From NCBI RefSeq assembly GCF_029873215.1, contig NZ_CP123620.1:2728001-2792000 (forward strand): a stretch of 64,000 nucleotides of DNA. The letters run 5' to 3'. Made by a program: the position numbers and the translations under genes. Under the pieces are notes generated by a model. It made no database searches and was not told where the DNA came from. It saw nothing but the letters and a program-made list of their open reading frames with translations. This DNA is from Nocardioides sp. BP30 (lineage in GTDB: Bacteria > Actinomycetota > Actinomycetes > Propionibacteriales > Nocardioidaceae). Shown here one piece after another: positions 16,377 through 20,281 of this stretch; positions within the stretch are counted from its first letter, which is position 1; each line of letters starts with the position of its first letter.

Positions 16377-17154
16377 GCTCTCCACGCCGCTCGACCTGGC
16401 ACCACGGCCCGGTGCGGCCCCGTTCGGCCGTCAGGTACTCGCCCAGGCCTCGATGGAGGCCCGGTTGATGCTGCGCAACGGCGAGCAGCTGCTCCTGGCC
16501 GTGGTGATCCCGGTGCTGATCCTGGTCGGCGGCGTCACCGCCGGGACCCACCTGGACCTCAAGCTGACCGACCCGCGGCCCCTGGTCGACATCTTCACGC
16601 CCGGCGTGATCGCGCTCGCGGTGATGTCGACCTCGTTCACCTCGCTGGCGATCGCCACCGGCTTCGAGCGGCGCTACGGCGTGATCAAGCGGCTGGGCTC
16701 CTCGCCGCTGCCGCGTTCGGGGCTGCTGCTGGGCAAGATCCTGGCGCTCCTCGCCGTCCAGCTGATCCAGATCATCGTGATCGGTGGGGTCGGCCAGCTG
16801 CTCGGATGGACGCCGCGGGCGGGCGTGCTCGGTGCGTTCCTGGGCGTCGCCCTCGGCACGGCCGCCTTCGCCTCGCTGGGGCTACTCGTGGCCGGCACCC
16901 TGCGCGCCGAGGCGACGCTGGCGGCGGCCAACCTGATCTACCTGCTCCTGATGGCCGGCGGTGCCGTCGTGCTGCCCACCAGCGCCTACGGCAGCTTCGG
17001 CCACGTCGCCCGCTGGCTGCCCTCGGGCGCCCTGGGCGAGGCGATGCGCGGCGCCTTCCTCGACGCGAACGTGGCCTGGCGCGACCTCGGTGTCCTCGCG
17101 GTATGGGCGGCGCTCGGGACGGCACTGACGGCAAGGACGTTCAAATGGGAGTGA
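16369..17154 (+). CDS. ABC-2 type exporter permease
   Basis: A 261-residue integral membrane protein with about six helices, matching ABC-2 type permeases. The segment GFERRYGVIKRLGSSPLPRSGLL is the amphipathic coupling region before the membrane core (only its class is meaningful here). It pairs with the preceding ATPase, whose reading frame it overlaps by 8 bases. It also overlaps the following ctaA start by 10 bases, so all three genes are very likely one operon. Confidence 0.9.
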   Translation: MSELSTPLDLAPRPGAAPFGRQVLAQASMEARLMLRNGEQLLLAVVIPVLILVGGVTAGTHLDLKLTDPRPLVDIFTPGVIALAVMSTSFTSLAIATGFERRYGVIKRLGSSPLPRSGLLLGKILALLAVQLIQIIVIGGVGQLLGWTPRAGVLGAFLGVALGTAAFASLGLLVAGTLRAEATLAAANLIYLLLMAGGAVVLPTSAYGSFGHVARWLPSGALGEAMRGAFLDANVAWRDLGVLAVWAALGTALTARTFKWE

Positions 17155-18050
17155 TCTCCACCGCTCGCGCCACCCCCGACACCCGGCGTCCGGGCCGGGT
17201 CAGGAGCTGGCTGCGCGGCCACCTGGTGCCGCTCGCCGTCGCGAACCTGTGCGCGAACATCCTGCTCGTCGTGACCGGCGGCGTCGTACGGCTGACCTCG
17301 TCGGGGCTCGGCTGCCCGACGTGGCCCGAATGCACCGACGGGTCGTATGTCCGCCACGGCGCCACCGGCATCCACGGCGTGATCGAGTTCAGCAACCGGA
17401 TGCTCACCTACGTGCTCACCGCCATCGCGATCGCGGTGGTCGTCGCAGCCTGGGACCGGGTGGGCAAGGTCAGGCGGCTGGCGGTCGGCATCGCCCTCGG
17501 CATTCCGCTGCAGGCGGTGATCGGCGGCATCAGCGTCCTCACCGACCTGAACCCCTGGGTGGTCGCGCTGCACCTGCTCGCCTCGATGGCCATGATCTCC
17601 CTGTGCGTGTGGATGCTCGACACGCTCTGGTCCCCCGCCCGGGGCGCCGCTCCCCGGCGCGTCGCAGGGCTGTCGTGGGCCGTCTTCGCCCTCGGCTGGG
17701 TAGTGCTCTGGCTGGGCACCATCGTGACCGGCTCCGGCCCGCACTCAGGCGACCTGCAGTCCAAGCGCACCGGACTCGACCCGGCAACGATGTCCCACCT
17801 GCACGCGCTCGCTGTCGATCTGCTGGTGGCGCTCACCGTGACGCTGCTGGTGGTCGTGCGGCGCTCGCCCTATCTGCGGCTCGTCGTCGGGGTGCTCCTC
17901 GGCGTGGAGCTCGCCCAGGGCATCGTCGGCTGGATCCAGTACGAGACGGGGCTGCCGGCCTTCGTCGTGGGCCTGCACATGCTCGGTGCCGCCCTCACCG
18001 CCGCCGGGCTCGCCCGGGTGGTGCTCTCCACGCGCCCGCACACCCGCTGA
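17145..18050 (+). CDS. ctaA: Heme A synthase CtaA/COX15
   Basis: A 301-residue polytopic enzyme that oxidises the C8 methyl of heme O to give heme A for cytochrome oxidase. About eight membrane helices are visible. The predicted heme-ligand histidines are H77 (GIHGVIEFSNR), H143 (ALHLLAS), H218/H220 (MSHLHAL) and H278 (VGLHML). The extracytoplasmic cysteine pair C57 and C63 (GLGCPTWPEC) is the redox pair of this class. E81 follows the first His. The ATG overlaps the permease by 10 bases; a GTG two codons later is an alternative. The stop codon runs directly into the 22-bp repeat array. Confidence 0.95.
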   Translation: MGVISTARATPDTRRPGRVRSWLRGHLVPLAVANLCANILLVVTGGVVRLTSSGLGCPTWPECTDGSYVRHGATGIHGVIEFSNRMLTYVLTAIAIAVVVAAWDRVGKVRRLAVGIALGIPLQAVIGGISVLTDLNPWVVALHLLASMAMISLCVWMLDTLWSPARGAAPRRVAGLSWAVFALGWVVLWLGTIVTGSGPHSGDLQSKRTGLDPATMSHLHALAVDLLVALTVTLLVVVRRSPYLRLVVGVLLGVELAQGIVGWIQYETGLPAFVVGLHMLGAALTAAGLARVVLSTRPHTR

Positions 18051-18180
18051 TTCGGGCCTGCGTCCGGGTTGAGTCGGGCCTGCGTCCGGGTCGAGTCGGG
18101 CCTGCGTCCGGGTTGAGTCGGGCCTGCGTCCGGGTTGAGTCGGGCCTGCGTCCGGGTTCATTCGGGCCTGCGTCGTTCCT
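18049..18180 (+). repeat. Tandem 22-bp repeat array (left)
   Basis: Six head-to-tail units with a 22-bp period start on the last bases of the ctaA stop codon. The shared core is GGGCCTGCGTCCGGGTT; most units begin GAGTC. Units 3-5 are identical; unit 1 begins GATTC and unit 2 ends in TC instead of TT. Unit 6 (18159-18180) has degenerate ends. The period is not a multiple of three, so no frame is maintained. A 41-base segment (18112-18152) recurs perfectly in inverted orientation at 19207-19247. No spacers separate units, so it is not CRISPR. Confidence 0.95.
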
Positions 18181-18193
18181 AGATGGCCCGATC

Positions 18194-18230
18194 TCGTCCA
18201 CAGCCGAGGCTGCTGACCGCCTTCTCCACA
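18194..18230 (+). promoter_or_regulatory. Two DnaA-box-like nonamers
   Basis: TCGTCCACA (18194-18202) and TTCTCCACA (18222-18230) lie on the same strand, 28 bases start to start, between the left repeat array and the nuclease gene. Each differs at one position from the actinobacterial DnaA box TTGTCCACA as I remember it. Two sites can be chance; they are listed because of their position inside the repeat-bounded segment. Confidence 0.35.
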
Positions 18231-18281
18231 GGAACCAGCGCCGCGCCGCACGGAGCGGCGTACGGCGACGACGCTCGTGCC

Positions 18282-19208
18282 ATGACCACTCCGACCATCG
18301 TGATCCCCGACCGCCCCTTCCGCCGGGCCGAGCTGCTCGAGCTCGGGCTGACCCGCCGTGACTTCTACCGCCTGGTCGAGGACGGTGTGATCCGGGCGGT
18401 CGTGCGCGAGGCCTTCGTCCGGGCCGACCTCGAGGACACCACCCGGCTCAGAGCGGCGGCCGTCTCGCTGGCCGTCGCCGAGGGGCACGTGGCGGTCGAC
18501 CGCACGGCCGCAGCCATCCACGGGGTGAACACCTTCACCTACGTCGAGCTGGAGGAGCCGCCACCCGTGGAGACCTGCGTGCTGCGCGGAGCCAACCCGA
18601 CCCAGCGGCGAGACGTCCGCGGCCGCACCCGTGATCTCGCACCCGGGGACATCATGGTGATCGACGGTCTGCGCGTGACCACTCCGCTGCGCACGGCTCT
18701 CGACCTCGGCTGCCACCTGCGTCGCCGTGAGGCGATGGCAGCACTCAACACGTTCGGGCGCCTGCACGCCGTGAGCGCGGACGACCTGCGGGTCCTGCTG
18801 CCGCGCTTCCACCGCCGTCGAGGGGTCATCCAGCTGCGCGAGCTCGCGCAGCTCGTCGAGCCGAGGATCGAGTCCGCCCGGGAGTCGTGGACCTGGCTGG
18901 AGATCCACGACGCCGGGCTGCCGATGCCGGAGCCGCAGGTCTGGATCGAGATCGACGGCGTGCCGACCTACCGTCTGGACTTCGCCTACGAACGGCGCCG
19001 GATCGCCATCGAGTACGACGGCGCGGAGTTCCACGACCGCACCGACGAGCAGCGCCGCCATGACGCTGCCCGGCGCGCCTGGCTGCGGAAGAACGGCTGG
19101 ACGGTGATCGTGATCCGGTCGGGTGACTTCACCGGCGAGCGGCGCGACCGGTGGATCCGGGAGCTGCGCCTCGCGCTGGCTGCGACGTACGACAACCGCC
19201 GCTGGTGA
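18282..19208 (+). CDS. DUF559 nuclease-like protein with AbiEi-type N-terminus
   Basis: A 308-residue protein with two parts. Residues ~8-75 resemble the HTH antitoxin-like domain of type IV AbiEi proteins (RPFRRAELLELGLTRRDF, then VIRAVVREAFVR). The C-terminal ~110 residues match DUF559, a Vsr-like PD-(D/E)XK fold: RLDFAYERRRIAIEYDGAEF supplies the acidic residues, and a basic helix and strand follow (WLRKNGWTVIVI). The role is unknown; single-strand or mismatch nicking, defence or mobility are possible. The ATG follows GACGCT by 6 bases; an in-frame ATG at 18183 would add 33 unlikely residues. The gene is bounded by inverted repeat arrays that touch its own stop and those of ctaA and ctaB. 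Confidence 0.8.
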   Translation: MTTPTIVIPDRPFRRAELLELGLTRRDFYRLVEDGVIRAVVREAFVRADLEDTTRLRAAAVSLAVAEGHVAVDRTAAAIHGVNTFTYVELEEPPPVETCVLRGANPTQRRDVRGRTRDLAPGDIMVIDGLRVTTPLRTALDLGCHLRRREAMAALNTFGRLHAVSADDLRVLLPRFHRRRGVIQLRELAQLVEPRIESARESWTWLEIHDAGLPMPEPQVWIEIDGVPTYRLDFAYERRRIAIEYDGAEFHDRTDEQRRHDAARRAWLRKNGWTVIVIRSGDFTGERRDRWIRELRLALAATYDNRRW

Positions 19209-19250
19209 CGCAGGCCCGACTCAACCCGGACGCAGGCCCGACTCAACGAG
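19207..19250 (-). repeat. 22-bp repeat units, inverted (right)
   Basis: Two units of the same 22-bp repeat as at 18049-18180, in the opposite orientation, fill the gap between the stop of the nuclease gene (TGA 19206-19208) and the stop of ctaB (complement of 19243-19245). The first 41 bases are a perfect inverted copy of 18112-18152. Only these two places in the window carry the repeat as far as I could see. Confidence 0.93.
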
Positions 19251-20193
19251 AGATGAGGGGGTCCACCGCGACGGCGACGAAGAGCAGCGAGAGGTAGAGG
19301 TTGCTGCTGTGGAACAGGTGCATCGGCTGGATCACGGAGAGATCCTCCGTGCCGCGAGTGCGAGCGTGCATGCGGTGCGCCTGCAACAGGAAGATCGCGC
19401 CGAGCACCGTCGCCGCAGCCGGGTAGAACCACCCGGTGGAGGCGATCGGCCACAGGGACAGCGAGACAGCGACCATCACCCAGCTGTAGAGCACGATCTG
19501 CCGACCGACCTCGCGGGCCGGTTTGACCACCGGCAGCATCGGCACGTCCACGTTGGCGTAGTCCTCGCGGTAGCGCAGTGCGAGCGCCCAGGTGTGCGGC
19601 GGGGTCCAGAAGAAGACCACCAGGAAGAGGATGACCGGCGCCCAGGAGAGGTGATCCGTGACGGCTGTCCAGCCGATCATCGCCGGGAAGCAGCCGGCGA
19701 TCCCGCCCCAGACGATGTTCTGCGTCGTGCGCCGCTTGAGCAGCATCGTGTAGACGAAGACGTAGAACGCGTTCGCCCCCAGCGACAGCGCCGCCGAGAG
19801 CGTGTTCACCCAGATCGCCAGGATGGCGGTGGAGAGCACCGCCAGGGCCGCTCCGAACACCAGCGCGGCGCCGGGCGAGACGATGTGGCGCGGCAGCGCC
19901 CGCCGCCGCGTACGGCGCATCTGCTCGTCGATGTCGCGGTCGTAGACGCAGTTGAACACCGACGCGGAGCCGGCCGACAGCGTCCCACCCACCACGGTGG
20001 CCACCACGAGGCCCAGGCCGGGGACCCCGCGCGCGGCGAAGAACATCACCGGCACGGTGGTCAGCAGGAGCAGTTCGATGACGCGCGGCTTGGTCAGGCC
20101 GACGTACGCGGCCACGACATCCTTGAGGGTCGCTCGCGGAGAGTCGTGTTCCTGGGTACTGAGACCCGGGCTTCGCTCACCGACGTACGTCAC
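19243..20193 (-). CDS. ctaB: Protoheme IX farnesyltransferase (heme O synthase)
   Basis: A 316-residue UbiA-family membrane prenyltransferase that adds a farnesyl group to heme B to make heme O, the substrate of CtaA. The first Asp-rich motif, [18 protein letters not shown], is near residues 81-98, and nine or so membrane helices follow. The frame opens at a TTG 12 bases upstream, but the GTG of VTYVGERS has GAGGA about 5 bases before it, so I chose it. The last codon and stop lie inside the inverted 22-bp repeat. Divergent from tkt and convergent with the nuclease gene. Confidence 0.94.
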
Positions 20194-20281
20194 GGACTTC
20201 CTCAACTGTTGGTGGAACCTCGGTCTTGTCCCGTGGTGCCATCGCTAGGACAGCGGGTGTGAGTCTAACCCTCGGCATGAG

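Follow-up and report, generated by a model that had tools for sequence, protein, structure and literature searches.

Why would a nuclease gene lie between two heme genes, enclosed on both sides by inverted arrays of one short repeat? This question is raised by a locus of the soil-type actinobacterium Nocardioides sp. BP30 (genome label G000; a single contig of 4.28 Mb), situated in a stretch of 64,000 nucleotides that is referred to as the window. Between ctaA and ctaB, the window contains a gene for an AbiEi-DUF559 protein of 308 aa (18282..19208, plus strand), which is preceded by about six sense copies of the 22-bp unit TGAGTCGGGCCTGCGTCCGGGT (18048..18174, plus strand; 5.8 copies according to Tandem Repeats Finder, TRF), the last copy being degenerate, and followed by two copies of the unit in inverted orientation (19207..19247, minus strand). 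The unit family of these arrays is called family A. We report that this architecture is specific to the DUF559/AbiEi gene family in the sample tested, and we propose, with about an even chance of being right, that the nuclease gene is mobile in a homing-like manner, through a protein that would recognize arrays composed of its own unit and cut them.

Inverted arrays flank DUF559/AbiEi genes

The survey sample comprised 80 Nocardioides-type loci (1.52 Mb) that had been fetched by ctaB and not by arrays. TRF detected intergenic arrays in these loci, with prominent periods of 21–22 and 31–32 bp, and each called gene was scored for how well its two flanks of 330 bp match in inverted orientation. 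Strongly matching inverted flanks (score ≥25) were found for 14 of the 19 DUF559/AbiEi genes versus none of 1331 other genes; at a threshold of ≥20, the counts were 15/19 and 3/1331, respectively. Among genes located between convergent neighbours, 14/19 DUF559 genes but 0/212 others scored ≥25. The latter comparison argues against the possibility that the arrays serve convergent genes as transcription-end or insulator elements, retained because they block read-through, and that the nuclease gene merely lies between two of them. We regard this explanation as unlikely.

The score was also determined for an extended set of 62 loci, consisting of DUF559 loci of the survey, paralogues, and loci from 296 Actinomycetes genomes, the last of which were best matches (30 fetched) and not a random draw. 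A score of ≥20 was reached in 45 of these loci, convergent neighbours flanked the gene in 52, and 12 of the 19 distinct host junctions had at least one locus scoring ≥20; some loci of the set had no clear inverted-flank signal. Outside the genus, 11 of 17 loci scored ≥20 (shuffle maximum 16). A cross-family null distribution had a 99th percentile of 22 and a maximum of 56.5, with single high values where families share a unit type. The null from related loci sharing unit families had a 99th percentile of 97 with 0/64 above it, and the gene-wide control was used instead. The flanking units were mostly 22 or 31–32 bp long and differed by lineage. Recurrence at several junctions in other Actinomycetes families is left unexplained if the arrays are passively spreading minisatellites, propagated by slippage and gene conversion between stop-codon regions, with the nuclease genes as cargo inherited with their flanks. 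Slippage also leaves the specificity to one nuclease family unexplained, and this scenario appears quite improbable to us.

In other Actinomycetes families (L195, L199, L207, L208, L216), the flanking units contain GATCATGCA and have periods of 22 or 32–38 bp. Distant DUF559 homologues in BP30 and in a relative labelled G070 (L186, L188) are flanked by palindromic, hairpin-like repeats and not by 22-bp tandem units; the BP30 member of this pair has an internal TGA.

Occupied, gene-less and inverted junctions

Within the 80 loci, the gene was present at 21 of 62 scorable junctions between two genes that we take, from their protein sequences, to be rbpA and pgl. TRF arrays occurred at 19 of the 21 occupied junctions, and the other two had inverted matches of 42.5 and 49.5. 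Where the gene was missing, arrays were found at 6/41 junctions and none at 35/41, which is a further point against elements that serve to end the transcription of the host genes. The empty ctaA–ctaB site that the initial annotation had envisaged was the common state in relatives: the nuclease gene was located beside ctaB in only 3 of 30 ctaB loci (BP30, G070, and a third genome labelled G087) and at 2 of 65 scorable ctaB–ctaA junctions in 80 other loci, in one case without a TRF array. Ten ctaB–ctaA junctions had arrays alone, some of them weak two-copy matches. At the ctaB and rbpA–pgl junctions, the nuclease gene is an optional gene between conserved genes, present in some relatives and absent from others, as is typical of homing genes.

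In one natural case, a segment located between inverted arrays was found to be inverted. A comparison of N. luteus JCM 3358 with BAFB (L146:1726-4201 versus L160) shows that a 2.4-kb segment containing the DUF559 gene together with a secreted-nuclease-like gene has opposite orientations between rbpA and pgl; the collinear flanks are 90–92% identical, and the inside is 75% identical.

Arrays at stop codons and their dispersal in the genome

The host genes at the window locus are ctaA (COX15/CtaA; 17145..18050, plus strand; sequence and Pfam PF02628, E = 2.9e-20) on the left and the convergent ctaB (UbiA family; 19243..20205, minus strand; Pfam PF01040, E = 6.4e-66) on the right. Six direct copies to the left, two inverted copies to the right, a perfect 41-base inverted match and a placement of the arrays at stop codons had all been annotated initially, and all were recovered by TRF, repeat search and inspection of the sequence. 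Positions 18112-18152 and 19207-19247 match perfectly in inverted orientation over 41 bp. The stop codon TGA of ctaA (18048-18050) is the TGA that opens the first unit of the left array. The right array shares bases at its inner end with the stop codon of the nuclease gene (19206-19208) and contains that of ctaB (19243-19245, minus strand) in its outermost unit. Six matches to the 22-bp unit with ≤3 mismatches were present in the window versus none in 100 dinucleotide shuffles.

A search of the BP30 genome with the whole cassette yielded 156 matching pieces, two of which were paralogous genes. Scanning 40 stretches and the window for the family-A unit revealed 56 arrays, including the two in the window and two single units; because the 40 stretches had been picked for matching, this number is a count and not a density. 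Hence 54 further family-A arrays or single units lie outside the window. This dispersal rules out a repeat that is restricted to the cassette. The idea of a discrete cassette between heme genes holds insofar as a gene plus inverted arrays recurs as a unit around homologues, but the 22-bp unit is not exclusive to it and is scattered at unrelated gene ends. The window array had no match in 36 other genomes of the genus, a set that excluded the two closest relatives, and a weak match (E = 9e-4) in one more distant genome.

In 40 of the 56 family-A arrays, the start lay between −22 and +15 bp relative to the stop codon of a sense gene, as would suit transcription-end elements; 15 arrays began exactly on a sense stop codon, and for 11 no same-sense stop codon was found within the limits. 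Copies occupied both strands (lists judged by eye for replication-strand bias). Array copy numbers ranged from 1 to 11, and some arrays repeated their own site-specific variants, a pattern that is consistent with spread by slippage and gene conversion.

Folding and the comparison of individual sites bear further on transcription end. Idealised 31/32-bp arrays folded strongly in two of three cases (z = −2.5 and −4.7; third −1.2), whereas four idealised units in tandem, whether of family A or of the G087 type, folded no better than shuffles on both strands (z = −1.3 to +1.6), and inspection of the window array revealed no T-run. An intrinsic terminator with GC-rich hairpin and T-run thus finds no support in family A, while some support exists for the 31/32-bp units; the initially annotated option of a terminator array gains nothing from the folding of family A. 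An array directly at a stop codon in BP30 (G000:C1:2626150) is replaced in G070 by a terminator-like plain hairpin (L238:8480-8630; by eye), which favours a function in transcription end. What speaks against it is that close relatives can differ in unit sequence at one and the same stop codon: at 2874413, the BP30 and G070 arrays belong to different families (by eye). At 2709989 they are similar (by eye).

Three paralogues of the nuclease gene were examined, and each has dispersed copies of its own unit; two of the three unit families often occur as gene-less inverted pairs, and the third has 7 matches, in BP30 only. Among the matches listed for three unit families, all 46 pairs of opposite-strand neighbours within 2 kb pointed inward (29 of family B, described below, 10 of family A and 7 of the G087 unit). 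This orientation follows from the placement of arrays behind stop codons and hence does not testify independently to mobility. The window gene is enclosed by one of the ten inward pairs of family A, and another pair encloses a called gene that spans about 1.7 kb (G000:C1:3488739 to 3490531, L060).

Units follow the lineage of the nuclease

Family B occurs in each of L180, L181 and L182, three loci that occupy one site, and paralogues in the same genome carry other units. It has 48 matches in BP30, 51 in G070 and 34 in G087. Adjoining a family-A array (L017:3491-3691), a 95-bp unit with family-B-like sequence inside occurs in 2.1 copies. At the rbpA–pgl junction, unit similarity was correlated with nuclease identity when host identity was controlled for (partial r = 0.41, p = 0.0002, n = 21; flanks trimmed to the junction, nuclease 5′ sequence still included). 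The same test restricted to 95 bp counted from the nuclease stop, a stretch that in some loci (such as L109 and L127) still reaches the host gene end, gave a partial r of 0.56 (p = 0.0002, n = 21). A Mantel test with 330-bp flanks, which reach into host genes, was not used.

Judged by ctaB, the named relative nearest to BP30 is Nocardioides sp. Iso805N (97% identity). At ctaA–ctaB, G087 has a different 22-bp unit with 5.5 copies on one side of the gene and 2.8 on the other, and this unit has 33 matches in the G087 genome and none in G070. The ctaA side in G070 consists of 2.5 copies of a unit unlike those of BP30 and G087. Where sites in the three genomes were compared by eye, the array ends merged with the stop codons and no clear target-site duplication was seen. 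The ctaB of G070 is 97% identical to that of the window, the part of its ctaA that was seen (L067) only 48% over roughly 100 residues, and the seen part of the G087 ctaA 86%; judging from these sequences, it looks as if the ctaA beside the element in G070 had been replaced.

The nuclease protein

Pfam placed the gene product in DUF559 above the curated cut-off and in MTES_1575 below it. The AlphaFold2 model (pLDDT 89) predicts an AbiEi-like part at the N terminus (best PADLOC match, E = 2.7e-8; Foldseek match 6y8q_A, E = 2.2e-5) joined to a nuclease domain of the Vsr/I-Bth0305I fold. Residues D233, E244, H251 and D261 are conserved. The structure matches of this domain are of the Vsr/EDxHD fold, which is known from homing endonucleases; a sequence-based comparison of the family alignment with solved structures gave no match. 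A Y1/HuH transposase was not indicated by Pfam, PADLOC or the structure model, which yielded AbiEi and Vsr/EDxHD-fold matches. The spacer between left array and nuclease start (18175..18281, plus strand; sequence) is probably the promoter side of the gene, and an alternative upstream ATG at 18183 would extend the protein to 341 aa. Homologues (E ≤ 0.001) occur in 210 of the 296 Actinomycetes genomes.

The AbiEi-like part would also suit a defence unit, as had been suggested initially, in the form of a defence or toxin–antitoxin cassette with an AbiEi-type regulator, a nuclease effector and the arrays as operators. According to the sections of PMC7319586 covered here, AbiEi binds 23-bp repeats in its own promoter. 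At the window, however, Pfam identified ctaA and ctaB as the neighbours and no AbiEii nucleotidyltransferase toxin gene beside the nuclease gene, and both arrays start at stop codons of host genes, one on each side, and not in one promoter. A gene of this kind is missing from the vicinity of most family-A arrays, and PADLOC gave only AbiEi-like N-terminal matches. We consider a defence cassette highly improbable.

DUF222-HNH genes share the family-A arrays

The BP30 genome contains ten copies of a DUF222-HNH-like gene (L055:6325-7563 and nine others) that are 87–95% identical at the DNA level. The protein has about 413 aa; one copy was checked with Pfam (E = 1.2e-30), and an HNH-like C-terminal motif was read by eye. 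In all ten copies, homology begins in family-A sequence, about 220–360 bp ahead of the called gene start, and ends near the gene stop; the 5′ family-A part of one copy is a single full unit plus a partial unit. These boundaries would fit a spread of the family-A arrays in BP30 by this multicopy element, with the DUF559 gene as a bystander or site-sharer, which we nevertheless consider very unlikely. No family-A unit was seen by eye at the 3′ ends, and DUF559 genes have inverted arrays in loci without a DUF222 relative (tblastn of the 80 ctaB loci, which are not whole genomes, gave no hit at E ≤ 1e-20). The link between DUF222 genes and arrays was hence seen only in the BP30 genome and, by eye, at one site in G070, where a related copy lies behind family-B-like units; at another DUF222 site in G070 the element was missing (by eye).

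A proposed homing-like gene and its arrays

The preferred explanation, a homing-like nuclease gene, builds on the architecture and its family specificity in the sample, the dispersed units at gene ends, the gene-less array pairs, a unit that follows lineage, and the single inversion. In this scheme, the AbiEi-like part would bind the 22-bp unit and the nuclease would break an array pair lacking the gene. Repair from a gene-carrying pair would then copy the gene in, using the arrays for homology, and the unit family would be kept alike within a genome by recombination among its arrays. Gene-less array pairs would be possible landing sites. Neighbouring genes stay intact because the array begins at the stop codon and supplies the TGA. 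The scheme starts from existing arrays and does not account for how a new stop codon would acquire its first array.

Several points weigh against this explanation. Thirteen of the 14 positive DUF559 genes share the orthologous rbpA–pgl junction and are thus not independent, and 7 of the 19 host junctions have no locus scoring ≥20. In G070, the closest relative, the flanks match each other weakly (inverted score 14.5), and the right flank is a degenerate copy plus one family-A-like copy (by eye). Most family-A arrays in BP30 have no adjacent DUF559 gene and ten lie 5′ of DUF222-HNH genes, so another nuclease may have spread them. Mere joint inheritance of gene and arrays, as in passive minisatellite spread, would on its own yield the unit–nuclease correlation and accounts for it as well as recognition does. 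Classical homing targets one conserved sequence, and with host genes that vary from site to site it does not explain new sites. Finally, binding, cutting and movement by the predicted nuclease are steps that we infer, and none was observed.

We also hold, more tentatively and with a little less than even confidence, that AbiEi-DUF559 proteins of Actinomycetes could act as mobility proteins for selfish elements that form an undescribed class. The inverted arrays at stop codons would be the element ends and gene-less pairs the landing sites, and the protein would recognize a lineage-specific unit of about two to three DNA turns, so that nuclease and unit would co-evolve and each lineage would rewrite dozens of gene ends with its own repeat.

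Comparison with known systems

Foldback transposons of eukaryotes likewise have inverted termini built of short tandem repeats; the window element differs in being bacterial, in containing a single nuclease gene and in its position at stop codons. The DUF222-HNH repeats, presumably those named 13E12-type, share the family-A arrays in BP30 but have an array at one end only and encode another protein family. Among the literature matches listed (titles, abstract openings and parts of a few texts), none described such arrays around DUF559 genes and no study on what DUF559 genes do in Actinomycetes was found; as far as these matches reach, the arrays are undescribed.

Two of three homing-gene features, the nuclease fold and the presence or absence between conserved genes, apply to the window element; the third, cleavage of an allele without the gene followed by copying in through repair, is part of the proposed scheme. 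I-Bth0305I is a free-standing homing endonuclease of the EDxHD family, and as far as the consulted parts of PMC6083498 and PMC3943268 extend, the window element differs from EDxHD homing genes in its own inverted arrays with many dispersed copies, its occurrence at many unrelated gene pairs and its AbiEi-like part. With AbiE, a type IV toxin–antitoxin system, it shares the AbiEi-like part, and AbiEi binds 23-bp repeats; different from AbiE as presented in those sections of PMC7319586, the AbiEi-like part of the window gene is fused to a nuclease, and the gene has no adjacent AbiEii and is flanked by its repeats at host stop codons. As no toxin gene is present at the window, the element is not a member of AbiE.

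The strong link to inverted tandem arrays gives a frequent gene family of Actinomycetes a testable job and would account for a class of repeats that are scattered over gene ends. As the sequence itself reveals the unit, every nuclease has its own predicted binding site. If the proposed explanation is true, a small selfish gene would likely spread by cutting its own repeats.

The closest parallel is REPIN-RAYT, in which REP sequences are combined with their Y1 transposase. Both have a single gene with inverted short-repeat flanks and many dispersed extragenic copies of the repeat, often in inverted pairs, as is the case for the unit families described above. The differences lie in the protein, an AbiEi-like part with a Vsr/EDxHD-fold nuclease instead of a Y1/HuH transposase, and in the repeats, which are tandem arrays of 21–22 or 31–32 bp units; of those folded, the 22-bp units (family A, G087) are not hairpins, and two of three 31/32-bp units fold. 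Lacking a Y1 transposase, the element is not a member of REPIN-RAYT. It is best read, by analogy, as a counterpart of REPIN-RAYT made of unrelated parts.
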